In this document: piece after piece, positions 1 through 17,498 of the stretch
Position numbering within the stretch: position 1 is the stretch's first letter
Layout: each line of letters opens with the position of its first letter
Source of the DNA: a virus
IMG/VR virus record: IMGVR_UViG_3300004369_000156
Location: 1 to 22,954 of that record
DNA: 22,954 nucleotides
Reading direction: 5' to 3' (one strand)
Made by a program: the position numbers and the translations under genes
The notes under the pieces: model-generated
Told to the model about the DNA's origin: nothing
What the model saw: only the letters and a program-made list of their open reading frames with translations
Databases searched by the model: none

Positions 1-3000
1 GGGGTTCATGTAGACGTTGAACCGATCGACGACCTTGCCGTCTCGAACGCGAACGGCGCCGAGTTGAATCGGACGGTTCAGTGCGTCCGGCTCGTCGTCA
101 CTCGCGAATCCTGTTGTCTCATAGTCGAAGAAGACCATGTCAAGACCGCGGATAACGTCCGCTGCGTCTTCCCAGCTGTCGACTCCAGCGAGCATTTCCT
201 TGACGCTTCCAGTAAACGCGCCGGGCGAAGGCTTACGTGGCGGCTTTGGTCTGTGCAATGCAGGCTTGTCACCCTTAGGCGGGACAGTTCCGCCACGAGC
301 AACGTCGATGATCGTGCCCTCGTTCCACTCCTTGCGCTGCGACTCGTGACCCGGGAAGTACCCCTGCACGCTGACCTTGCCCTTAGGTGTTTCTTCGTCG
401 CGGAACACCTTTTCAATGACAAACGAGTCTTGGCCTGTGACGTCTCCAGGCAGCAGGTCCTGCGCCTCGTAGCCCATCGCTTCTGTCAAAGGCTCCGGCT
501 CTTGGAAAAGATCAGGATCGTCAGCGCCTTCTCGTACTCCAAGACGGTCAAGAATGTACTGACGACGAGACTTCAACTTACGCTTGATCGTCTCTGCTTC
601 GTCAGGATCTGTAATTACTCTATCGACAATATCGTCGATCTCCGAGGGGATCAGATCACGCAACGGCTTAGCGTATTCTCGTAGCTGATCGTCTGTCAAA
701 TCTCCGAAGAAAATTGACGCTTGATCTCCTTGACGTGGATCACGCATGGTGTCAATTTCTGTCGCCTCGTCACCAAACATCTCTCCCTTAGCGGCGCCAC
801 GAGCACGCCACATAAGAGCTCCACCTGGGTCGACGCGAACTGGATCACCGTTTTCGTCGGTGACAATGTTTGTCGAGCCGTCATAGAGGTAGCCTGTGAC
901 GTCGTAGTTGCCGAGCCACGCGTCAATGACAAATCCGCGTTGGATCTTTTCTACGTACTCTCGGTCGACAATTTCTCGCCGCCCTGGGCTAACTCGGTCA
1001 AACAAGTCGTCTGGCTGAGCTCCAGGCACAAGTGGAGAGACAATTCTTAAATCGCCTTCTCTGCTGCCAAACGCGACCTCTGCTGAATCTATTCCAAGCT
1101 CACGATAGAACAGGGACGCGAGTGCCTCGTTTTCCGCGTGTGACAGCGAGCGAGGGATCTTGACGTAGTACTCGCGGCCATCGGCGTCTCGATAAAAACC
1201 TCCAGGATTAGTTCCGGTGCCTTCACCGTACATCTTCCAGTCGTCGATCGAACCAACGTCTCGGACGCCTACGTCGACGCTTTCTGCATCTTCTCGAACC
1301 GCCCGCACCTGTACAACGAACTCAGCAGTACCGTTCTTACGTACTGAGACTACCTCGAACCTACCGCCACCTAGCACCTCGTCTTCTCCATCAAACCAAG
1401 AAAGGTTAGATATGTCTATGGACTTATCGATGTCTCCTGGCAAAGCTTCAAAGACCACTCTTGTTCCGTAACCCTTGTTCATGAACAAGGCTGACGCGAG
1501 ACTGCCGTCTGTGATGTCTGTCGTCGTCCACGAGCGAGAGTCCATATAGAACGTCGATCCCTCAGTCGTGTACGCGTCGAGACTTCTGTCTTCATTTTTA
1601 AGAGTAACAACTCTGTAGAGCGAAACCTCATTAGGGGCGCCTGCTGCGTGAATTAACCTGTAGAACGCCGCTCCTGTTGTGTTGGCGTCAAGATCGTCAT
1701 CACCGTCCATGATTCGCTGCCGCGAAAGCATGAACTCGCTGTAGCCACCGTGGGTCTCAATAATGGCGTAATACGTGTCCTCTGCAGCCATTCTTGCGTC
1801 CATCTCGGAGACTGGGCCATCAAAGTACACGAGGTCCTTGGACAGCTCTGTGACAATAGACTGTCTCCACGAGCTATAGCCAGCCTCCTCGAGATCGTCA
1901 GGAGTATCTCCGCCGTCGATCGACATAAGGACGCCCCACACGGCCTTAAATGCTTCCTGCTCTTCTGGTACTGGCGAAAACGCGTATTCCTTGACATCCG
2001 AGAAAAGATCGAAGAAAGTCTTGTCCTCGTCTGACCGAAGAGCACTCGCGATCTTCTTCAGCGTCTCGTTTCTCTCGTCATAGTCGGCAAGAAGAGTGCC
2101 GACGCGCGCAGTGCGAGTAAGTCTTTCAGGCTCTTGCTTGATGTCGTTTCGAAGAGCATCTTGCTCAAGCTGACTTATAGGCACCTGAGTGCTCGGACCG
2201 TCTTCTGGTCCGATAAGCATGTCCTGCTTGAACTGCTGTACCCTGTCGGTGTTTCGCTCTGGGCGATCAGGATTGTCTGCGTCGAGCGCTCGGTCGTAGA
2301 TACCGGCAAGAACCATGTCGCCGTCAACACCTGAGCGCTGGAGAGCGTCAAACAGCGCCTCAGCAGGTACCGACTCGTCTCCGTCGTCGAACGGCAACTG
2401 ACCCTTGCCAGTCGCGCGTTGACCGTCCGCACTAGGAAGAACGGCGTCGGCTAGAGCCTTCGCGAGTTCTGCCTGCGAGAACTTCGTGGAAAGTACCTCG
2501 GGATCGTCTGTGTAATCTCCGCTCTTTTCGTTCGTGCGACCCTTCGGCTGATACATCCCGTAGATGTCGGGCTTGTACGCACCTTCAGGAGTCTCGAACA
2601 TCGCGTCGAACTCAGCAAGAAGCATCTCGTCCATCTCGTCGATGTCGGCCTGGTCGATCTCGCCGACCTGCATCTTCTCAAGAATGAACGTTCTTTCCTC
2701 GCCGTCTGTGACGCTGTAGCCGACAACGTTTGTTGTGCCCGACTTGTTGTTCGTGTAGATGCGTTCTGGGACGAAGACTCGTTCCTTGTCGTTGTACATG
2801 AACGAGACCGCAGACCCGTTTTGGATCGCGTCCTCTACTGCTGTGCGCAACTCGAAGACGTCGTCACCACGTAGAGGCGCCGCCTCGACTGAACCCTCTG
2901 GCCGCTGTACGGGCTCTGGCTTAGCCTCCATCTTCTCGATGGTGTACGTGCGCTTCTCGCCTAGATCTTTGTCCATTCCGTAGACGTTCGTAGCACCTGT

Positions 3001-6000
3001 CTTGGCGTTCTGCCACACGCCTTCAGGAGTGATCGTCCGTTCTCTGCCGTTGTAGATGAACGAGATGTCCTCACCGTTGTCGATCGCGTCAGTGATCTGA
3101 GCGATTCTGTCTTCTGGAGTCCCACCAGTGATATCGCGAGGTGGGCGAGGACCTTCAGGCCCGCCTTCGGGAGGAGTAGGGCCGCCTTCGTCGCCTTCAT
3201 CAGTGTCGCCCATCATGAAGTCGGCGACGTACGACATAGCGTCGTCGCGTTCTTTAAGCGAAATCTCGTCGTTGTTGTACATTTCATCGAGAGCTTCCTC
3301 GACGTCGTCGTAGCCGATTCCGCGGTCTTCATCTTGCATTACATTAGAAAGACGCTTCATAAGCGCGTCACGCTTAGCAAGACTGTTTTCTAGGCCAAGT
3401 AGGTCTCTTTCGTAGATACCGTCTACTAGCGATTCTGTTTCATCGAAACCAAGACCTTCGTCGCCTGGCCCGCCTTCGGGAGGCGTCGGCCCGCCGTCGG
3501 GAGGAGTAGGGCCGCCTTCGGGAGGAGTGGGGCCGCCCGTCGTGAGACGCTCGTAGAGATCGTCCCATTCGGGATCTCCAGGTCCGTCTTGGAAACGCGC
3601 GAAAAGCGCTCCGTCTGTGTCTGGCCCGCCGAGGAACTCACGAGCCTCTTCGTCAGTAAGATTAGACTTGTCAAACGTGACGAGCATTCTGTACTCGTCG
3701 CTTAGACCTGGCCTGGAGCCTCCAGCCGCGTCGTATTGCGCCTGAAGCTCGGGCGTGTCTGCAACCTCGATGTATCCACCAAGTTTGTTGATGTTGCTGA
3801 TCTGCTCTTCAAATCCTTCTGGATCTTCGAACATGTCAGCAAGCGTGAAGCCGATCTGAACGCCGTCGCCTTTTTGCGTCGTGTTGCGACTGCTGATGTA
3901 CGCTGCGCCACCATCGTCATCACCACTCGCGTCGCGCACAGGACCGCGGCCGCCTTCGTCGAGTTCTCCGTTGTACCACTTTCCGAAGCGGTCATAGTCG
4001 GCTTCAGGTATGTCATACTCAACGACTGGCCATCCAGCAGGGCCGGACTCGTCGATCATCTTAGCTTGGCCACCCGGAAACAGTCTGTCAAACTCTGGCA
4101 GAATCTCGTCGAGGACCTCGTCGGGCTCTCTAGCGACGTCAGCCTCTACGCGTCCGCCTGGGCGCCCGTCCGGCAGCGTCGTGCTTGTCGGGTAGCCAAT
4201 ACCGTACCTGTCTTCGAACTCATCGCGTTGGGCCTCGCTGGGGCCTACGATCTCACCTGCTGGCGTGGGCACGGCTGCACGGTCGTTGATCCACTTATCA
4301 GCCTGCGCCTCGACGTCGGGATCGTTCGCGTCGAGAGTGATCGTGTCCTCGACAACCTCACCGTTGAAGACGCGCTCTGGCGCGTCGCCTTCGCGGGCTG
4401 GGCGAATCTTATCGATGATGTACTCACCCTTGGCGTCGCGACGGTTGAGCTCGATACGTGAGCCGTCGGGAAGTGTCCACGTCGACTTCTCGTACGTCGA
4501 GCCGGGGTCGGCATTGCCAGGGTTCAAAGTTTCAGCCGCGGTCTTGACTACTTCGGGGGTGACGCGTTCGCTTTCTGGTGTTTGCACGCGAGGCAGGAAG
4601 TCAAAGCCAAGCTTTTTGTTTGCAACTTCTGTGGGAGGAGACGCTGGGGGAGATCCATCTCTGTTGTTCCACGGGCCGACGTATTTCCACGAGCCCTGGC
4701 CTGGCCGAGGCGGGTATCCTAGCGGCTTCCACTCCCAGTTGTCAGGATCGTTCAACCTCTTGTCGATGATGTCTTCGCGATCCTTACGGCGTTCGCCGCC
4801 AGCGCGGTCAGCCTCAGCCTTCTGAAGAACCTTGACGTACTCGGGCTGGTCGACGTCGATCGCCTTTTGAACGTCGCCCCAGTCATCGAGCTTCTCGGCG
4901 CCCTTGACCGTCGAGTCGTCGAGACCGCGGCGCAGCTCGAGCGACTGACGATCGCCGTCACTATCCAACGTTTCGACCGCGGCGTACGCCGTCTCCTGGT
5001 TCACCCACTCGACGCGTGACGGCTTGAGCACGTCACCGTCGTGCGTCGCGAGAACGTTCTTTGTCCAACCGCCCGGCGCGTCGGCTCGTGTCGGGCGAAT
5101 GTCCTTGAAGTCGACGAAGACGTCGTCCGTACCGACCGACACTTCTCTATCTGGAAGTCCCTTACGCGCTTTTTCGGGGAGGATAGCCTTCGCTGCCTCA
5201 CCCTTGCTGGCCTTCGTCGAGTAGACACCGTCTGGAAGATAGCGGCTGCCCTTGATCTCGACCTCAACGCCGTCGGGGTCGTCGGCGGGAAGACCGGCGA
5301 CGCGTCCTGAGACCTTTCTGAAGACACCGTCCGGCATGCGAAGATTGAAGAGCCAACCGCCGCCCATCTCGGCGAAGCGACCCTTGCGATCACGGCGCTG
5401 GAGTTTCGCGCGCAGCGAACGTGCGGCGCTCGAGTTTCCACCGAGGCCGAGGCCGAACGCCGCGGTCAGAGGGGCGTCGTCGATGCGCAGATGCGTCGGC
5501 ACCGAGCCCGCTGGGGCGACTGATAGACGAATAAATGCGTGCTCACGCTCCATTGAGCCAGGAAACGCGGAGAAAGCCGCCGCAACGAGCGGGCGATACT
5601 CGTCGGCTACCGTTGGGTCAGCGGCAAGCCAGCGCGCTTTTTCAGCGCGCAGCGATGCGCTGTTCATCGAGTGGCTACGAGTAGACAGTGGGTGACCGAT
5701 CGCGAGAAGATCGGAGTACTTCGTCGTGCCCGTTGTCTGTCTGTTGTGAAGAGCAAGAGAGATGAACAAATCGACAGCACGAAGTGCGGAGAAAACTCGC
5801 GCTTGTGGTTCATATGACGCCGTTGTAGCAAGACTTCTGTTCGCTACCGTAATTGCAGAACTGAGTGACACTCTGCGCTCAGCGGGTACAGTTGAGTTCG
5901 CGCGATGCACCTTTGCTTCGATCTCAGTGCGTAGCTTCGCCGAATATTGACGAATAAACTGCGACGCCGGAATCTTCTTCTTTGACGCCTTCTTCACTAT

Positions 6001-6012
6001 TTTATTGTTCAC
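1..6012 (-). CDS. Giant multidomain polyvalent virion-type protein (WYL x2, ADP-ribosyltransferase, kinase-like, DnaQ exonuclease), 3' end missing
   Basis: One reading frame is open from GTG at 6012 to base 1 without a stop: 2004 codons, C-terminus beyond the window. Visible order: basic N-terminus (KKASKKK) and helical region to about 190; a conserved-looking block opening RDRKGRFAEMGGG near 205; Pro-Gly repeats (GGPTPPE type) near 825-850 and 937-952; two WYL-like units at about 963-1028 and 1050-1115 (pattern A-I-x-N-G...F-x-Y-N...E-R...P-E...R-T-F/Y-x-x-E-K-M); an ADP-ribosyltransferase at about 1455-1575 with R1467, S1494-W-T-T-T and E1543-D-E1545; a HipA/PI3K-like kinase-type domain at about 1590-1800 with K1618, N1702-x-D1704 and D1728-P-G-G; a Pro/Lys linker; then FFDYETTG with D1963 and E1965, the ExoI motif of DnaQ-family exonucleases. 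It starts 4 bp after the Dps gene in the head operon. Inference: an injected virion effector or head protein. The ExoII and ExoIII motifs lie off the edge. The GTG start has only a weak GGGG ribosome site. Confidence 0.88.
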   Translation of the reverse strand, partial: MNNKIVKKASKKKIPASQFIRQYSAKLRTEIEAKVHRANSTVPAERRVSLSSAITVANRSLATTASYEPQARVFSALRAVDLFISLALHNRQTTGTTKYSDLLAIGHPLSTRSHSMNSASLRAEKARWLAADPTVADEYRPLVAAAFSAFPGSMEREHAFIRLSVAPAGSVPTHLRIDDAPLTAAFGLGLGGNSSAARSLRAKLQRRDRKGRFAEMGGGWLFNLRMPDGVFRKVSGRVAGLPADDPDGVEVEIKGSRYLPDGVYSTKASKGEAAKAILPEKARKGLPDREVSVGTDDVFVDFKDIRPTRADAPGGWTKNVLATHDGDVLKPSRVEWVNQETAYAAVETLDSDGDRQSLELRRGLDDSTVKGAEKLDDWGDVQKAIDVDQPEYVKVLQKAEADRAGGERRKDREDIIDKRLNDPDNWEWKPLGYPPRPGQGSWKYVGPWNNRDGSPPASPPTEVANKKLGFDFLPRVQTPESERVTPEVVKTAAETLNPGNADPGSTYEKSTWTLPDGSRIELNRRDAKGEYIIDKIRPAREGDAPERVFNGEVVEDTITLDANDPDVEAQADKWINDRAAVPTPAGEIVGPSEAQRDEFEDRYGIGYPTSTTLPDGRPGGRVEADVAREPDEVLDEILPEFDRLFPGGQAKMIDESGPAGWPVVEYDIPEADYDRFGKWYNGELDEGGRGPVRDASGDDDGGAAYISSRNTTQKGDGVQIGFTLADMFEDPEGFEEQISNINKLGGYIEVADTPELQAQYDAAGGSRPGLSDEYRMLVTFDKSNLTDEEAREFLGGPDTDGALFARFQDGPGDPEWDDLYERLTTGGPTPPEGGPTPPDGGPTPPEGGPGDEGLGFDETESLVDGIYERDLLGLENSLAKRDALMKRLSNVMQDEDRGIGYDDVEEALDEMYNNDEISLKERDDAMSYVADFMMGDTDEGDEGGPTPPEGGPEGPRPPRDITGGTPEDRIAQITDAIDNGEDISFIYNGRERTITPEGVWQNAKTGATNVYGMDKDLGEKRTYTIEKMEAKPEPVQRPEGSVEAAPLRGDDVFELRTAVEDAIQNGSAVSFMYNDKERVFVPERIYTNNKSGTTNVVGYSVTDGEERTFILEKMQVGEIDQADIDEMDEMLLAEFDAMFETPEGAYKPDIYGMYQPKGRTNEKSGDYTDDPEVLSTKFSQAELAKALADAVLPSADGQRATGKGQLPFDDGDESVPAEALFDALQRSGVDGDMVLAGIYDRALDADNPDRPERNTDRVQQFKQDMLIGPEDGPSTQVPISQLEQDALRNDIKQEPERLTRTARVGTLLADYDERNETLKKIASALRSDEDKTFFDLFSDVKEYAFSPVPEEQEAFKAVWGVLMSIDGGDTPDDLEEAGYSSWRQSIVTELSKDLVYFDGPVSEMDARMAAEDTYYAIIETHGGYSEFMLSRQRIMDGDDDLDANTTGAAFYRLIHAAGAPNEVSLYRVVTLKNEDRSLDAYTTEGSTFYMDSRSWTTTDITDGSLASALFMNKGYGTRVVFEALPGDIDKSIDISNLSWFDGEDEVLGGGRFEVVSVRKNGTAEFVVQVRAVREDAESVDVGVRDVGSIDDWKMYGEGTGTNPGGFYRDADGREYYVKIPRSLSHAENEALASLFYRELGIDSAEVAFGSREGDLRIVSPLVPGAQPDDLFDRVSPGRREIVDREYVEKIQRGFVIDAWLGNYDVTGYLYDGSTNIVTDENGDPVRVDPGGALMWRARGAAKGEMFGDEATEIDTMRDPRQGDQASIFFGDLTDDQLREYAKPLRDLIPSEIDDIVDRVITDPDEAETIKRKLKSRRQYILDRLGVREGADDPDLFQEPEPLTEAMGYEAQDLLPGDVTGQDSFVIEKVFRDEETPKGKVSVQGYFPGHESQRKEWNEGTIIDVARGGTVPPKGDKPALHRPKPPRKPSPGAFTGSVKEMLAGVDSWEDAADVIRGLDMVFFDYETTGFASDDEPDALNRPIQLGAVRVRDGKVVDRFNVYMNP

Positions 6013-6016
6013 TGTA

Positions 6017-7246
6017 TTAGCCCCGGTCTGCTCGTGGTAACAGGTCCGCGTCTCTACTGTCGTGATGAAGTGTCGCTAGTTCAAATGCTCTATCAAAAGG
6101 ATCTTCTTGATCGGTTACTGCTCTCTTCCATGCTGCTCGAAGAGACGGCATGATCTCATAGCCGAGATCTGAAAACTCCGCCAACGCGAGAAGTGCGTCC
6201 TCGGTTGATTCGTAGTCTTCAAATGGGCTAAGAGTAACTGTCAACTCGGCCTCGAGAAGATCGGCGTCTGCTACAATTCCAGAAGCTGAAATCGACTCTG
6301 CTGATGCTTTCTTCTTCGAAGACTTCGGGTGCCCGGCAGGCAGCAGATCGTTGTCCTGCGTGTAGTTGCTATTTGCCGGCCGTCCTGATTTAAGAAGCTT
6401 CAGATACGCGTTCACCCTAGCCATCGCCCACTGATCTCTTGTCTTGCCTGGGCGATGAGAACTTGAGAACGCTCCTGCACCACGGCGGTAGACTGCCTTG
6501 AGCTGCGCCATGGTCGTCTTTCTGCCTGCCGGCGCGTTCTCGTTGTGCTCCTTCATCTTGTTGCGAAGAGCGGTCTCTGTCTTATCAGAAAACTTAATCT
6601 TCTTTGAATTCTTTGCCTTTGCTGATCCAGGCTTGTTCGTCTTTGAACCGTAGATACGATCCTTCTTAGGCGCGGGCTTTGAGCCCGCGGCGTACATAGG
6701 CTGACCTTCAACGACGTACGTCGCTTCTACTGGAAGATCAGCTTTAGTTTTTCCCGGCAGCATCGGACGCATGTTCTTGTCCATCCCGATCGTTGTACCG
6801 AGTTGCCAGCGCCACTTCTCGTGAGCATCGATTCTTCCGGCGATAAAGTCAGCGACACCTTGTTGATTGCACTCGTTTGCGCATTCAAATGTTTTGTATA
6901 GAACTGAGATAACAGCATTGTTTGCGGCGTACAGTTCTGCTGACATTGACATCGGATCGCAGTCTGGATCACTCATCGCAACATCACAGGAGGAGACAAC
7001 GTGGCCGAGATTCATTGGAGCGTTGTACCCAAGTTTGCGGATGTTTTCAGCGATAGGGTCGATCGAGTCGAACAGATCTTCATAGATGTCGGAAAAGAAA
7101 TTATGAAACTGAGTAAACTCCGGTCCCTTGACGTTCCAGTGAAATGCATGAGCCATGAAGTACATCGTAAAGACGTTAGAAAACGTCCTATGTAGACACG
7201 CCGCGATATCAGTAGTTGAATCGCCCATATCGTAACTTATTTTCAT
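6017..7246 (-). CDS. Dps/ferritin-like protein fused to a phage C-terminal domain
   Basis: 409 aa. Residues 1-155 are a Dps-type four-helix domain. HAFHWNVKGPEF carries H36, and H48, D63 and E67 follow at the 12/15/4 spacing of the Dps intersubunit ferroxidase site, so iron oxidation may be retained. Dps proteins bind iron and protect DNA. The protein is more than twice the usual Dps length. Residues 185-220 are Lys-rich. Residues 225-305 hold a block (AVYRRGAGAF, HRPGKTRDQWAMARVNA, YTQDNDLLPAGHP) that I remember from phage structural-region proteins but cannot name. The last 90 residues are acidic and helical. It begins with an ATGA overlap on the portal gene and ends 4 bp before the giant gene, so the three are translationally linked. 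Inference: a virion component, perhaps condensing or protecting packaged DNA. The Dps fold is a confident call, the role is not. Confidence 0.87.
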   Translation of the reverse strand: MKISYDMGDSTTDIAACLHRTFSNVFTMYFMAHAFHWNVKGPEFTQFHNFFSDIYEDLFDSIDPIAENIRKLGYNAPMNLGHVVSSCDVAMSDPDCDPMSMSAELYAANNAVISVLYKTFECANECNQQGVADFIAGRIDAHEKWRWQLGTTIGMDKNMRPMLPGKTKADLPVEATYVVEGQPMYAAGSKPAPKKDRIYGSKTNKPGSAKAKNSKKIKFSDKTETALRNKMKEHNENAPAGRKTTMAQLKAVYRRGAGAFSSSHRPGKTRDQWAMARVNAYLKLLKSGRPANSNYTQDNDLLPAGHPKSSKKKASAESISASGIVADADLLEAELTVTLSPFEDYESTEDALLALAEFSDLGYEIMPSLRAAWKRAVTDQEDPFDRAFELATLHHDSRDADLLPRADRG

Positions 7247-8928
7247 TGCTGCTCGGTCTCCTGCTGCTGTTCTGGCGCCGGTGCTCCCGGTGCCTGCCCT
7301 TGGTCAGTCTGTTGTCCTCCCTGTAGAAGCTGCTGAAGCTCAGGAGGCATCGGTGCAACGCTCTGTGCCTGCTGCGCTGCTCGAGCCGCGCTGATAACCT
7401 CGGGGGCTACAGCACCTAGCATCGCCTCTGTCAACTCTGGCGTGATCATTCCCTTGTCGAAGACAAGGCGCAGAGCGATCTCGTCTGCGGTAGGCGCGTC
7501 ATTATCGCTGAATCCATGAGCGCGGCGCCACGTACCGTACGAGACAGCCATCTTGTCGAAACCGGAGTCAGCATCTGCCGCGCGGTCGTTACGGGTGGAG
7601 ACCTGGCTGGGGTCAAACCAAACAACAACCTTCTCTACCTCGGTCGGATCATAGCCGTTCGCGATGAGATACGGACGTAGGTAGACAACTGTCAGCGCGT
7701 CGGCAATCAAAAGCATGAGTGGTTCGATGTGCGCCTTGTACAGCGACTCGTCGATCTGAAGAGCGTTGCTATACTTTACGTTGGCAAGACCGGTGACGAT
7801 ATCCTTCGGAACGTCAAGACCTTGAAGAATTCTCTCGAGAACGCGATCGGCGCGCTGTGCGAGTGCAGGGTCGAACGAACGCTCGAACTTGAACTGCTTA
7901 ATGCGGTCACCAAGTTCAGCAGGACCGCGAATGATCAACGGTACGACGGCACTTGCCGAGTCTTCATCGCGGATCGGAGTCGTCATCGCGTCGATGAGTT
8001 GATCCTCGAACTCGTCGGCTGACTCGTCGGGGTTGAACGGGGGACTAAGATCAGTCTCGTCATCGTACGGATAGTCGGGATCAGGAGACGCCGAAACGCT
8101 AAGACCGTCAGGAAGATATAGCGCGCCGGCATTGAGGCGTGAACGTGCTGTTGCACGGAACGTTCTATTGAGAAGAAGCAACTCGGCGCACAGATCAAGC
8201 AAGCCACGGAGAGACGAATCAGCCTCTTCAGAGAATCTCGGGTGCGCGCGCCAGATGCGACCAACAAACGCGTTAGTTGGCAGCGAAATCATCTTGCTCA
8301 TTCCGCCGCTACCCTGCGCTAGCAGTTCGCGGCGAGGAACGATACCGTAGTTGTTGCGCTGGTCAACCTGAACCTCGTCGACGGAGCGAATGTCCCATGA
8401 CTCTGGAATCCCGGTGCCTTTGCGCTCCGGCATTTGAACGAGATAGCACTCGCCAGCAACACTTAGGTTGAGAGCTGCGTCGCGAAGAAGACCGGCTTGA
8501 CCGCCGTAGGCAGAGTCAAGGCGAGTCAACGCTCTTTCAGCGGCGGCGGCAAGATTCTTGTCGATCGTGCCACTTAGTCGAACAGATACTGGAGTCTCTG
8601 CTGGATTGTCGACGCAGGCGGCGTACAGACGAATTCTGGAGACAACAGATGCAACAAGGTTGAATGCGTACTTGACCTCTCCGATGGCGTCGTAATACTC
8701 CCAGGCCTCTGCCTGCCATGAGCTTGACGCGGTGTGACGCCGCGTGCGAAACTGCTCGGCCTCACCTTTGTCGTGAAGTTTGATCTGCGTTGCCGCAGCC
8801 GTCATGGTACGAGGTGTGGAGTATGAAGCTGACGTCGCGAAGCTAACACCAAAGGGCAACTCTGGCACAGCGGGTAGATTTGAGCCTCTACGCGAAGGTG
8901 TTGATGATTCTCGGCGAAATACGCCCAC
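7243..8928 (-). CDS. Portal protein
   Basis: 561 aa, a normal size for portals of siphophages. The portal dodecamer forms the DNA channel at one head vertex and docks the terminase. It shows typical actinophage portal features: a disordered basic N-terminus, then EAWEYYDAIGEVKYAFNLVA near residue 75, a conserved AALNLSVAGECYLVQ stretch near 150-165, IGRIWR-like text (VGRIWRAHPRFSEEADSS) near 220, and RIKQFKFERSFDPALAQRADRVLERILQ before GLDVPKDIVTGLANVKYSNALQIDESLYK, the stem-helix region. The C-terminus is Gln/Pro-rich. The GTG start at 8928 follows a good GAGGAG ribosome site 6 nt upstream. The gene overlaps the downstream Dps gene by ATGA. The operon order terminase, portal, head-associated giant protein supports the call. 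Confidence 0.93.
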   Translation of the reverse strand: MGVFRRESSTPSRRGSNLPAVPELPFGVSFATSASYSTPRTMTAAATQIKLHDKGEAEQFRTRRHTASSSWQAEAWEYYDAIGEVKYAFNLVASVVSRIRLYAACVDNPAETPVSVRLSGTIDKNLAAAAERALTRLDSAYGGQAGLLRDAALNLSVAGECYLVQMPERKGTGIPESWDIRSVDEVQVDQRNNYGIVPRRELLAQGSGGMSKMISLPTNAFVGRIWRAHPRFSEEADSSLRGLLDLCAELLLLNRTFRATARSRLNAGALYLPDGLSVSASPDPDYPYDDETDLSPPFNPDESADEFEDQLIDAMTTPIRDEDSASAVVPLIIRGPAELGDRIKQFKFERSFDPALAQRADRVLERILQGLDVPKDIVTGLANVKYSNALQIDESLYKAHIEPLMLLIADALTVVYLRPYLIANGYDPTEVEKVVVWFDPSQVSTRNDRAADADSGFDKMAVSYGTWRRAHGFSDNDAPTADEIALRLVFDKGMITPELTEAMLGAVAPEVISAARAAQQAQSVAPMPPELQQLLQGGQQTDQGQAPGAPAPEQQQETEQQ

Positions 8929-11888: not shown

Positions 11889-12377
11889 TCAGTCGAGCAC
11901 GCGGACGTTGGGATCGTCGGCGAAGAGTGACCGCAAGGTGTCAGCGGTCATCAGTCCTTCGCCGGCGAGACCCTCAGCAGTCTGGTACGCGGCGACCGCG
12001 GCCTTGGTCAGGTCGCCGTACCAGCCGGTCTTGTCGGTGTACGCATCGCGGTATCCGAGTTCGCTGAGTCGACGCTGAACGTGATAGACGGACATCGACT
12101 TGCGCGCGAAGGTGTTCTTGTAGACGCAGGCCGACAGACGTACGTCGTCGACGTCAGCTCCGCTGACAGCCTGACCTTTCGGCGATGCCGGTCGCTTCTT
12201 GGCAGCAGGCTTCGGTGCTTCCTGAACTACCGCACGAGTCGGAGCGGGTTCTGCCTCGGCCGGCGAGTCAGACTTCGCTGGCGCGGATTCCACGGGTGCC
12301 TCGTCAGATACGGGCGCGTCGACGATGTTTTCGGGTTCAGTTGCCATGTTCAACATCGTACCAGGTCGATGGGTCAT
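11889..12377 (-). CDS. Peptidoglycan-binding-like (PG_binding_1) domain protein
   Basis: The C-terminal half, from MSVYHVQRRLSELGYRDAYT through GWYGDLTKAAVAAYQ to LMTADTLRSLF, matches the PG_binding_1 fold that anchors many endolysins and wall hydrolases to peptidoglycan. The N-terminal half is a Pro/Ala/Glu-rich linker (APVSDEAPVESAPAKSDSPAE) with a Lys-rich PKPAAKKRPASPK segment. No catalytic domain is present. ATG at 12377 overlaps the large-terminase stop as ATGA, the coupling used throughout this genome; ATG at 12356 or 12347 is also possible, and none has a clear ribosome site. Inference: a wall-binding accessory, structural factor or degenerate lysis protein. Its position directly after the terminase is unusual for a lysin. 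Confidence 0.75.
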   Translation of the reverse strand: MTHRPGTMLNMATEPENIVDAPVSDEAPVESAPAKSDSPAEAEPAPTRAVVQEAPKPAAKKRPASPKGQAVSGADVDDVRLSACVYKNTFARKSMSVYHVQRRLSELGYRDAYTDKTGWYGDLTKAAVAAYQTAEGLAGEGLMTADTLRSLFADDPNVRVLD

Positions 12378-13786
12378 CGAGGTTTGAACACGCGTGCGCC
12401 GCCGCCTGCGCCACCGCGAAACGCCGGCAGGCGTCGAGCCGCGACGGACTTCGCCGTGATCTGCCCACCGACGAATCCAGGCGGAGGTTTGATCAGCAGA
12501 GCAGTCAGTGCGTGAACGAGCGCGTCGACACGGTCCGGTGACTTGCCTTCGCCGGGAACCCACGAGATCATCTGTGACTCGAGTTCGGCGAGATAGTTGA
12601 TGTGATGCACGCGGTTTTGTTCGTATGCGAGCGTGATGGGCTCTGCCCGCAAAGCCTTTCCGTGCTTCGAGTGAACCTCGAGAACTTTGATGTTCGGGTC
12701 GATTGTTCGGATCGCGTTCGTGACGAGCGCTCCACCTTGATTGACTTCAGCAACCACCGGGCACGAGTACTTACGCGCCATTGCAACGACCGCGTTCGCC
12801 CACATCTCTGGCGAACCGTGTATTGTCGCGTCCTCGAGAACCCAAGCATTACGCTTGTATAGATCACGTTCGCCTGTTGACGCGCAAACGACGATGCCGC
12901 ATTCGTCTCTTGGGTTCTCAGCAACTGACGGGTCGACACCGACCACTCGCAGAGGCGCGCCAACTGGGAAGACGCGTTCACGGCTTCGTTCGATCAAATC
13001 TTCGTTCCACAACGCACCTTCGGCGTCGTCAAGCATCTCGCCGTAGAGTTCCTGTGCCGCAAGACGTGTTCCGGCGTAGACTCCAGTAATGGCGTCGAGA
13101 TACGTGCTCGACAGGTTTCCGGCGTTGTCGAGAGTTGATCCGCGTGACACGAGGACGCGGCCGGTCTTCTCGGCTTCACTGAGAAGCGAACGAAGAAGCG
13201 GAACGCGTTTCGGAGTTGTAGTAGCGATGATCTGCGGCGAGCGGCCAAGTCGACAGGCAACGCGAAGGTTGTCCCACGAAGTCATGCCTGCGGCGTCAGG
13301 AGTCTGTCTCCAAGCGGCTGCCTCGTCTGCCCATGCGTAGTGAAACTGCGGACCGCGTAAACCGTCTGGTTCGTCGGCCGTAAAGCACGTCGCTGTGTTT
13401 CCATTCGGCCACGTCAGTCTCCGCTTCGACGGTTCGTATAGCGGGCGCTCCGACGGAGGCGACACACTGATGATGCCGGACTCGCCCTCGACGATGACGT
13501 CACGAACGTCGGCCGCAGTACGTGCAACCAGTGCGAATCGCAGTTGACCTTGCGTTGTGTCTTTCGCTTTCTCGCGAATCCACTCGGCTGCGGCTCTTGT
13601 CTTGCCCGCGCCTCTACCGGCCATATACAACCAGATTGACCAGTCGTCTCCAGGCGGAGGCATCTGTTCTGGCCGCGACCATGCTTTCCAGTCCCAGACG
13701 AGCGCGTCCATATCAAGACCGCTCAATAGTGCTGCGCGTTCGTGCTCAGGCAGCAGCGCGATCTTTTCCATCATGCTTTTGCCCAT
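12374..13786 (-). CDS. terL: Terminase large subunit
   Basis: 470 aa, full-length ATPase plus nuclease. Walker A is GRGAGKT (57-63), the Walker B acidic pair is D154-E155 in YAWADEAAAW, and the coupling motif is ATTTPK (188-193). The RNase H-like nuclease shows D285 in VVGVDPS, E348 in VVAEVNQGG and D421 in DRVDALVHAL. It powers DNA packaging into the prohead through the portal and cuts the concatemer. A TGG-TATTAT extended -10 ends exactly 6 nt before the ATG and there is no ribosome site, so the message is probably leaderless. The stop overlaps the next gene as ATGA. Confidence 0.96.
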   Translation of the reverse strand: MGKSMMEKIALLPEHERAALLSGLDMDALVWDWKAWSRPEQMPPPGDDWSIWLYMAGRGAGKTRAAAEWIREKAKDTTQGQLRFALVARTAADVRDVIVEGESGIISVSPPSERPLYEPSKRRLTWPNGNTATCFTADEPDGLRGPQFHYAWADEAAAWRQTPDAAGMTSWDNLRVACRLGRSPQIIATTTPKRVPLLRSLLSEAEKTGRVLVSRGSTLDNAGNLSSTYLDAITGVYAGTRLAAQELYGEMLDDAEGALWNEDLIERSRERVFPVGAPLRVVGVDPSVAENPRDECGIVVCASTGERDLYKRNAWVLEDATIHGSPEMWANAVVAMARKYSCPVVAEVNQGGALVTNAIRTIDPNIKVLEVHSKHGKALRAEPITLAYEQNRVHHINYLAELESQMISWVPGEGKSPDRVDALVHALTALLIKPPPGFVGGQITAKSVAARRLPAFRGGAGGGARVFKPR

Positions 13787-13831: not shown

Positions 13832-14230
13832 TCACTCGCTGAGACGCCGCGCATTCTGCCAAGCGTCGAGAACTGCTCCAATCTTTTGACGTAGATCGTC
13901 GCTGATGAGATCAATTGTCTCGTCTGGAATGAACGAAAGTAGCCCGCTCGTCGTAAACGCAAGAGCGTCCGCGAGCGACTGCTCTCTTGCTGCCAAGGCT
14001 TGGGTCTCGGCGTTCTTGACCCGCAGATCTCTGATCTCTCGAAGAGAGTCACGGATCAGGTCGTGAACGTCGACCTTCGCCATGTACTCCTCGTCGATCA
14101 ACCACATCTCAAGACGGGCGATGATGTCTGCTCTTTGGTATTCGTCGTGCACGAACTCTCCGGTCTTGAACCGCAACCTGTTTTTCATATCACTATCACG
14201 GCGGAACAGTATCTTACGGAGTTTCAGCAT
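13832..14230 (-). CDS. Unknown helical protein upstream of the terminase
   Basis: 132 aa. I chose ATG at 14230 because GGAG lies 8 nt upstream; it overlaps the WhiB gene by 17 bp. The N-terminus is basic (MLKLRKILFRRDSDMKNRLRF), followed by FVHDEYQRADIIARLEMWLIDEEYMAKVDVHDLI and a likely coiled coil (SLREIRDLRVKNAETQALAAREQSLADAL split around residues 60-90). No family is recognised. A small gene just before the large terminase is the usual place for a small terminase subunit, and a basic N-terminus plus coiled coil would fit, but no HTH is evident. Confidence 0.7.
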   Translation of the reverse strand: MLKLRKILFRRDSDMKNRLRFKTGEFVHDEYQRADIIARLEMWLIDEEYMAKVDVHDLIRDSLREIRDLRVKNAETQALAAREQSLADALAFTTSGLLSFIPDETIDLISDDLRQKIGAVLDAWQNARRLSE

Positions 14231-14594
14231 TGCGCGTTCTCCGTAGTAATCTTCGCGTCTTGTGAGACATTCCCGCATAAACGCCACCAACGTCTTGAGT
14301 CTGCGTCATAGACATGATGTATTCAAAGCACTCCTCCTTGACCGGACACGGTGGCGGTCCGATGAGCTCAATGCTGCGGGTCTTTCTGTTCATCACTTTG
14401 CGTTGCTCACCGTTGCAGACGGCCAAGGCTTGCTTCTGCGTCCCCATGTCCGACACAGTCGGATGGAAGAGGTTCGGATGAAGACCGCGACATGCCGCGC
14501 GGGTCATCCACGTTCTGTCCTGCCTGATGAAGTTCTGAAACTCTTCAAGAAGAGCGTCGGAGTCTTCTTTGTCAATTGTCTGTGACTGATTCAT
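14214..14594 (-). CDS. WhiB-family Fe-S regulator with expanded cysteine loop
   Basis: 126 aa. It has the WhiB layout: WMTRAACRG with C35, NLFHP, AVC with C60, PCPVKEEC with C83 and C89, then the GVYAGM turn (104-109) and a basic C-terminus (KTRRLLRRTRN). WhiB proteins bind a [4Fe-4S] cluster and act on the principal sigma factor and DNA; phage copies can alter host or phage transcription. The odd feature is C60-x22-C83 where the canonical spacing is C-x2-C, about 20 residues inserted between cysteines 2 and 3. ATG at 14594 has only a weak GAGAG site. It lies in the late operon just before the terminase, so it may act as a late-gene switch. Confidence 0.88.
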   Translation of the reverse strand: MNQSQTIDKEDSDALLEEFQNFIRQDRTWMTRAACRGLHPNLFHPTVSDMGTQKQALAVCNGEQRKVMNRKTRSIELIGPPPCPVKEECFEYIMSMTQTQDVGGVYAGMSHKTRRLLRRTRNAETP

Positions 14595-14829
14595 CTCTCG
14601 GTCTTTCGTTGAGCTTCGGCGGGAGAACGAACCCGCACTCGCAACGGTACGGGTCGTCCCCGCTCGGAACTGCCATTTCCTTAGCGCATCCCCAGCACGA
14701 CACCTTTCGGCGTCTGCGTTCATGACGAGGCACGTATCCGCGGTCGTGTTCCATTACATGAAACATGTGTTCACGTGGAGTCTTGAACAGTTTTCCGCAT
14801 GTTCCGCACTCGTGAGGCTGCTTTGTCAT
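14572..14829 (-). CDS. Zinc-finger protein, C2H2 plus zinc ribbon
   Basis: 85 aa. ATG at 14829 forms an ATGA overlap with the preceding gene. Residues 8-28 fit the classical C-x2-C-x12-H-x3-H finger (C8, C11, H24, H28, with F15). A second site, C45-x2-C48-x14-C63-x-C65, is ribbon-like, and the two are joined by a very basic RHERRRRK stretch. Likely a DNA- or RNA-binding protein. It overlaps the WhiB gene by 23 bp, so the two may be produced together as regulators. Confidence 0.8.
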   Translation of the reverse strand: MTKQPHECGTCGKLFKTPREHMFHVMEHDRGYVPRHERRRRKVSCWGCAKEMAVPSGDDPYRCECGFVLPPKLNERPRDESVTDN

Positions 14830-16628: not shown

Positions 16629-16889
16629 TTACACTGCACGAGTGTAGTTGTCTACTTTTTTGGCTTCTTTTTTCTTTTCACGCAAAATCTTCGCGCGCTG
16701 GTTAGTTGTTGTCCCTGCCCACACGCCGACTTCTTGATGTTGTAAAGCGTGTGACAAGCACCGCACGTGAAGATCGCAATTGTCACAGATCTTTCTCGCT
16801 TTTCTCACAGACGTCGCGTGAGTTTCGTCAAAAAACATGTCGAGCTTTCCAGAGCACGGCGAGTCTTTCATCCAAGATATATCTTTCAT
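16629..16889 (-). CDS. WhiB-family Fe-S regulator, canonical
   Basis: 86 aa. C12, C35, C38 and C44 follow the canonical WhiB spacing C-x22-C-x2-C-x5-C (SPCSGK and ICDNCDLHVRC), with the GVWAGT turn at 55-60 and a Lys-rich C-terminus. It would bind a [4Fe-4S] cluster and partner with the host housekeeping sigma factor. ATG at 16889 follows the recurrent AACGACGAAAGGA leader. It lies directly after the proteasome-like gene in a long operon. Compare the atypical WhiB at 14.2-14.6 kb. Confidence 0.92.
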   Translation of the reverse strand: MKDISWMKDSPCSGKLDMFFDETHATSVRKARKICDNCDLHVRCLSHALQHQEVGVWAGTTTNQRAKILREKKKEAKKVDNYTRAV

Positions 16890-16904: not shown

Positions 16905-17498
16905 TTATACAGGCGAAACTTGTTGCATCAAATGAACCGTGCCCCCTGACGATGAGTCTAAGCTGATAGCGATAGTGATCGCTTCTCTGATCATTTTCTT
17001 TGCTTTGTCGATTTGCACAATCGACGCTGTAGAGTCTCCGAGCATCGCGTACAACGCGCCCATAGCGAAGTCGCCGCCTGTGCCTGCCGCATACACTCCG
17101 CTCGCATCTCGAATCCACGAGTAGTCTTCGTCGATCTCGTAGATGACTCCATTGATCGCAGCAAGAATGACCGAGCCATGAGTCGCTCTTTCTTTGGTCT
17201 CGCGAGCCGCATAACCGTGGTCTTCAAAACACGACCGAAGTTCGGGGACGAACTTGCTCGTGATGAATCTGTCAAGTCGCGCGCCGACTAAGTTTCCAGG
17301 CTTTGGCGGAGTAAACGCGTGAGCAAGAATGTTGATCGCTCGTAGATCTCCTGCCGCACCGAGAAGATACGGACCGTTCTTCGCTACCTTCGATGATCCT
17401 TGCCCAAGAATGAACGTTCTTCCATTGTCGTCGGAAACGAGCGAGTCAAATCCAACGATCGCCCAGCCATCGCCTTGAACCGCAAGAACCGTAGTCAC
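16905..17498 (-). CDS. Proteasome/HslV-type Ntn hydrolase
   Basis: 197 aa. After the initiator (GTG) come TT, and AIVGFDSLVSD places D18 exactly 16 residues after T2, as Asp17 follows Thr1 in HslV and proteasome beta subunits. SSKVAK supplies a lysine at 37 near the Lys33 position, and GPYLLGAAGD resembles the glycine-rich strand of the family. Removal of Met would expose Thr as nucleophile. A later segment (GVYAAGTGGDFAMGALYAML) resembles the conserved G-S-G-x-x-A-x-A-A region. No partner ATPase or regulator is encoded nearby, so it would act alone, use host unfoldases, or serve a different Ntn activity. No ribosome site is visible before the GTG; TAATAT lies 6 nt upstream. Confidence 0.87.
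   Translation of the reverse strand: MTTVLAVQGDGWAIVGFDSLVSDDNGRTFILGQGSSKVAKNGPYLLGAAGDLRAINILAHAFTPPKPGNLVGARLDRFITSKFVPELRSCFEDHGYAARETKERATHGSVILAAINGVIYEIDEDYSWIRDASGVYAAGTGGDFAMGALYAMLGDSTASIVQIDKAKKMIREAITIAISLDSSSGGTVHLMQQVSPV

Follow-up and report, generated by a model that had tools for sequence, protein, structure and literature searches.

A Dps mini-ferritin fused to a DUF5824 tail beside the portal gene of uncultured, probably actinobacterial phages

Results and Discussion

Comparison of a viral DNA stretch with its relatives indicates that a Dps mini-ferritin with conserved ferroxidase residues is encoded directly after the portal gene and is fused to DUF5824, a domain otherwise common in phage head proteins. 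We give an even chance to the reading that this is a ferroxidase-competent Dps, which its DUF5824 tail would direct to the head to guard DNA from iron and peroxide damage, and the comparison suggests that the virus may equip its own particle with protection against iron or oxidation.

The window, meaning the whole stretch analysed (22,954 bases), is one entire IMG/VR record, and the window features given below with start and end positions lie on the minus strand. The 409-aa ORF in question (6017-7246), defined by Pfam Ferritin and DUF5824 matches and an AF2 model, is a Dps mini-ferritin domain joined to a tail. Its ATG start overlaps the stop of the upstream portal gene (7243-8928; phrog_776, E 8.5e-106) by 4 nt (ATGA at 7243-7246), and it ends 4 nt ahead of a giant gene starting at 6012. 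The fusion is a head-operon product and includes a domain common to head proteins. A preliminary description had placed the gene between the portal and a giant head protein; the portal neighbour was confirmed, but the label 'head protein' for the giant neighbour reflects its position, its Pfam matches all being sub-threshold.

The Dps domain

The presence of a Dps domain, as first described, was borne out by both sequence and model. The domain covers residues 1-158 (6773-7246, net charge -11), and its stretch 18-155 is matched by PF00210 (Pfam Ferritin, E 8.4e-17) and by phrog_3636 (E 7e-25), the best solved relative being the Dps PA0962 (PDB 8ff9, E 5e-19). It was predicted confidently, with AF2 helices at 10-38, 44-71, 80-85 (short), 98-125 and 129-152 followed by disorder, and the top PDB matches of the model were all Dps (TM 0.87-0.94). 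This is the Dps form of the four-helix ferritin-like fold, having the short helix between helices 2 and 3 and lacking the fifth, C-terminal ferritin helix. The prediction covered a single chain; the Dps part would most likely form the usual Dps oligomer, a dodecamer, on whose exterior the flexible linkers and DUF5824 modules would lie. Dps cages have tetrahedral symmetry, and a twelve-fold symmetry match of Dps to the portal was rejected on that ground.

The ferroxidase residues H36, H48, D63 and E67 (core at 7046-7141) stand exactly where they had been reported, together with the Dps-typical W37. A search for their loss in relatives found none: every one of the 39 non-redundant head-operon Dps sequences (<90% identity) retains H-H-D-E and W37. 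Such conservation, down to 29% identity, would be needless in a purely structural or packaging role, where a Dps cage would be a multivalent scaffold or DNA-organising core displaying the basic DUF5824 part in the prohead and iron chemistry would be secondary. That role is in our estimate unlikely, even if DUF5824 is basic and stands beside prohead proteases and capsid in other phages, and the 18 of 45 related loci that have no Dps also speak against it.

Two features of some Dps proteins were absent. At the fifth acidic metal-site position (second His +4; E. coli Dps D67) the window has Ser52; the acidic residue is lost in 28 of the 39 relatives (Gly, Ala or Ser), and Gly is also found in the Dps of cyanophage S-SRM01. 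We took this position as accessory and not defining by itself. The Lys-rich N-terminal DNA-binding tail, which only some Dps have, is also missing, the N-terminus being short. DNA compaction, one of the roles first proposed, is unlikely for the Dps domain alone because the domain is acidic; the strongly basic stretch of the fusion is confined to the DUF5824 part (net +21).

The DUF5824 tail and its partners

The rest of the protein had been called a phage-specific tail, yet it is not private to the window phage, as its core is DUF5824 (PF19141), a widespread viral domain matched at residues 207-298 (E 1.3e-8; 35.5 bits against a curated cut-off of 25). In the full-length AF2 model the Dps domain is followed by a disordered linker (residues 160-215, 6602-6769, pLDDT <50), Lys-rich at its end and, in an alignment of 19 fusions, the site of Cys-rich inserts in relatives, and then by two small helical domains. 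The first comprises the basic segment and DUF5824 (residues 191-312, 6311-6676, ending in DNDLLPAGHP), and the second is the C-terminal domain (residues 340-409, 6020-6229, AF2 helices 348-396, ending in DADLLP), which is kept in the tail alignment. Modelled on 51 sequences, DUF5824 and the C-terminal domain form two three-helix units (mean pLDDT 78). A fold search with this tail against the PDB gave no match (best E 1.5), and therefore no function was taken from its structure. Its viral-library matches include three proteins of uncultured phages (XkdF, prohead protease and ChaB). The DxDLLP(xGHP) motif closes both tail domains (fusion residues 298-303 and 399-404) and recurs in the N-terminus of the giant protein and in unrelated DUF5824 proteins; it might mark a site of cleavage or docking.

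An independent sample was obtained by scanning viral contigs with DUF5824 sequences from outside the window lineage, which confirmed at least 543 relatives; the best 80 were kept, and the 74 analysed gave 21 proteins at <70% identity. DUF5824 was matched in all 21. Prohead proteases, capsid or portal were most of the recognised partner domains: S78 prohead protease in 8, XkdF protease in 7, HK97 capsid in 5 and portal in 5 (4 Phage_portal, 1 Portal_Mu), counts that overlap since a single protein may hold several. In Roseobacter phage CRP-831, DUF5824, an S78 protease and a capsid domain lie on one polypeptide; the domain and its DxDLLPxGHP end are common to CRP-831 and the window, whereas the partner is a prohead protease and capsid in the former and Dps in the latter. 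As exceptions, DUF5824 is joined with a cytidylyltransferase-like domain in pelagi- and methylophage proteins and stands alone as an 85-aa ORF in one pelagiphage.

HK97-type maturation proteases work within the prohead. Because DUF5824 is repeatedly fused to proteases acting there, it is a reasonable candidate for prohead localisation, and it may bring the fusion into or onto the prohead, presumably just as with the prohead proteases of other phages. DUF5824 would in this way gain a first function by association, and it may serve as a natural tag to load cargo into phage heads.

Related loci and the history of the Dps gene

The Dps domain by itself gave no hits when viral contigs were scanned for its pattern, and portal and tail profiles were needed. 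Profile searches gave 345 portal and 120 tail relatives, of which 80 each were kept. After removal of portals ≥95% identical, 45 loci were complete from portal to giant gene, the window and the Actinomycetia phage DSL-LC01 counted. The tail comes after the portal in all 45, and Dps is the first domain after the portal in 27 of them, 16 times fused to the tail and 11 times as a separate ORF before it; as the loci were picked by similarity, this 60% is not an unbiased frequency. Among 17 longer viral records (51-160 kb), nine have exactly one ferritin-family gene, in every case directly after the portal, and eight have none. Dps is therefore dispensable, being absent from 18 of the 45 loci and 8 of the 17 longer records. 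A portal-adjacent Dps is carried by a large group of uncultured viruses, with hosts that are probably Actinomycetota; all members seen here are metagenome assemblies, known from sequence alone. In one of the nine longer records with such a gene (G016), about 8 kb of other sequence precedes the tail gene. Some tail matches, about 970 bp long, resembled inserts; they probably reflect a search extending past the tail into the beginning of the giant gene, which is DUF5824-like.

Across 32 loci, identity ranges from 29 to 86% for Dps and from 67 to >99% for the portal. Median dN/dS is 0.10 for Dps (38 pairs) and 0.07 for the tail (326 pairs), and the head-operon Dps are under purifying selection. 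A quick tree combined the 39 head-operon Dps with 33 bacterial and archaeal genome loci, two solved Dps of bacteria and four Dps of other phages. In it the head-operon sequences form one clade (SH-aLRT 100) apart from cellular Dps, on a stem of 1.33 changes per site, with at least five changes between the fused and separate states. Dps distances correlate with those of the tail (r 0.64) and portal (r 0.48), and none of 5000 permutations was as high. In the best 80 of 401 cellular relatives the match is essentially confined to the Dps part. Taken together, the residue conservation, single clade, selection, correlated distances and Dps-only cellular matches point to an old acquisition that was probably retained in the head module as a functional mini-ferritin. 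They also point to a Dps that has apparently been joined to, and split from, one same head-associated domain repeatedly.

Comparison with other Dps proteins

The window Dps shares with the Dps family (P. aeruginosa PA0962, B. subtilis MrgA) the fold, the H-H-D-E residues, W37 and the short helix between helices 2 and 3. It differs from both in its DUF5824 fusion, its place in a head operon, Ser52 at the fifth acidic position and its deep separate clade. Tailed phages also encode free-standing Dps (S-SRM01, LAh_9, GAP52, Streptomyces phages; gut Gratiaviridae, PMC8008677); in contrast, these are single-domain proteins, outside the head operon in the regions examined and outside the head-operon clade.

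The Dps of gut Gratiaviridae (PMC8008677) and of Lactobacillus phages (PMC6669764) have been read as an aid against oxidative stress during infection. The same could hold here, so that Dps would be made late with the head genes and stay free in the cytoplasm, lowering iron and peroxide stress, while DUF5824 would have an assembly role of its own and Dps would not be put into the virion. In 11 of the 27 Dps loci the Dps is indeed a separate protein, and such genes, having no tail of their own, would therefore need another way into the head. However, the other phage Dps genes examined stand near nucleotide-metabolism or other non-head genes, unlike the nine portal-adjacent genes of the longer records, and each of the changes between fused and separate states involved the same head-associated partner. 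We hold a role confined to infection possible, though doubtful.

Among the open-access literature we found no paper on a portal-adjacent Dps, on a Dps-DUF5824 fusion or on the function of DUF5824, and the papers searched did not mention DUF5824.

Cys-rich modules in place of or beside Dps

The relatives have Cys-rich modules where Dps is missing or in the linker between Dps and the tail. In their head operons, module A (CxxC-x8-C-x12-C) is fused either at the Dps-DUF5824 junction or ahead of DUF5824 (L122, 4475-4714; L034, 12346-12585; and 23 other loci), and its cysteines C45, C48, C57 and C70 are invariant in 25 sequences. It is HiPIP-like below threshold: PF01355 matched 15 of the 25 (best E 0.0013, none shown above the cut-off), and the PDB entries PioC and HiPIP 3h31 gave E 0.08 and 0.39. 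Module B has six cysteines (CPPATQDI...KCAASRTCxAW; L122, 4916-5275; L009, 26233-26604; and 7 other loci), and no Pfam or PDB family was found for it. In DSL-LC01, module B has a head-operon gene to itself, which carries the annotation 'high potential iron-sulfur protein'. A third module, C (CWDGYxQVGMK...PNCVP), and a further CxxC-rich stretch also occur among relatives. A search of the open-access literature for HiPIP together with phage capsid gave no match.

DSL-LC01 (OQ999401) has the same operon as the window, with a 78% identical portal, a 70% identical tail and the giant gene next, but no Dps was found in its 129 kb and another N-terminal segment (CWEGYVQVGMK...PNCVP) stands in its place. 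This phage is of lake origin, with Actinomycetia as predicted host (PMC10611076).

A special link between Dps and module A was rejected, as the module occurs in 13 of 27 Dps loci and 9 of 18 others. Because module A is not enriched beside Dps, the modules look independently exchangeable. This fits an exchange of cargo on a constant tail, and any iron-sulfur chemistry of the modules is putative. A bolder reading, possible though doubtful, is that DUF5824 is a prohead-targeting tag with exchangeable cargo; here the cargo would be a set of iron and redox proteins, namely Dps, the HiPIP-like four-Cys domains and further Cys-rich modules, that the particle incorporates for protection in the extracellular phase.

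Possible function in the phage head

The preliminary description had read a Dps in a head operon as a hint at iron- or oxidation-related protection, or compaction, of packaged or injected DNA. This held up in part and was much strengthened by the comparison: the head link agrees with the portal adjacency in nine of nine long records and with the head-protein partners of the tail, and the ferroxidase core is intact throughout. In the reading that we prefer, a Dps guarding DNA in the head, the fusion would be produced in step with the portal through the 4-nt start/stop overlap. In the prohead or during late assembly, Fe(II) would be oxidised and sequestered with peroxide or oxygen, and DNA that is packaged or about to be packaged would thereby be shielded from Fenton damage. 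The fusion may also be kept on DNA by its basic DUF5824 part. Such a protein would be useful in lake water, given its light-driven peroxide and its iron. Against placing Dps in the head are the occurrence of DUF5824 outside head proteins, the loss of the fifth acidic residue in most relatives and the absence of Dps from many of the loci.

A portal-fixed Dps repeatedly fused to a prohead-protease-associated domain would amount to enzymatic protection built into the particle, unlike a stress gene acting during infection, and would tie the survival of phages outside the cell to iron and peroxide chemistry in a testable way.

The giant protein and other genes of the window

The giant ORF (1-6012, at least 2004 aa) runs past the window edge and starts with a divergent DUF5824-like domain (5653-5967; hhalign probability 97.3, E 1.8e-11 against the tail profile), as does the giant gene of relatives, so that two adjacent genes have DUF5824-type domains. 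The width of an assembled Dps cage, about 9 nm, exceeds that of the portal channel, a few nm. The DUF5824-type domains in both the fusion and its giant neighbour, as well as the swapping of partner domains between relatives as in cargo carriers, would suit a fusion that travels inside the head and enters the new host together with the DNA, which it would guard there. We regard such ejection as improbable, since the cage is too wide for the channel and unassembled or unfolded chains would be required, and no ejection signal was identified.

Inspection by eye suggested ADP-ribosyltransferase-like and kinase-like segments within the giant protein, but Pfam and PDB sequence searches gave them no support. 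At the window edge (138 down to 1) the ORF has a possible start of a DnaQ-like exonuclease (RNase_T, E 0.003). The motif RDxxGKFAxMG / RRDRKGRFAEMGGG is found at window position 5400 (giant residue 205) and in L009 (13005-14405, 26640-28451), and is repeated across several head-operon proteins of the window lineage.

The window also encodes the terminase large subunit (12374-13786; PF03237, E 5e-23) and two WhiB-family genes (14214-14723 and 16629-16889; PF02467). As there are two WhiB genes and the relatives of the portal are found in Mycobacterium, Gordonia and Microbacterium phages, the host is probably an actinobacterium. An HslV-like peptidase (16905-17498; phrog_1040, E 3e-20) is also present in DSL-LC01, upstream of the terminase.
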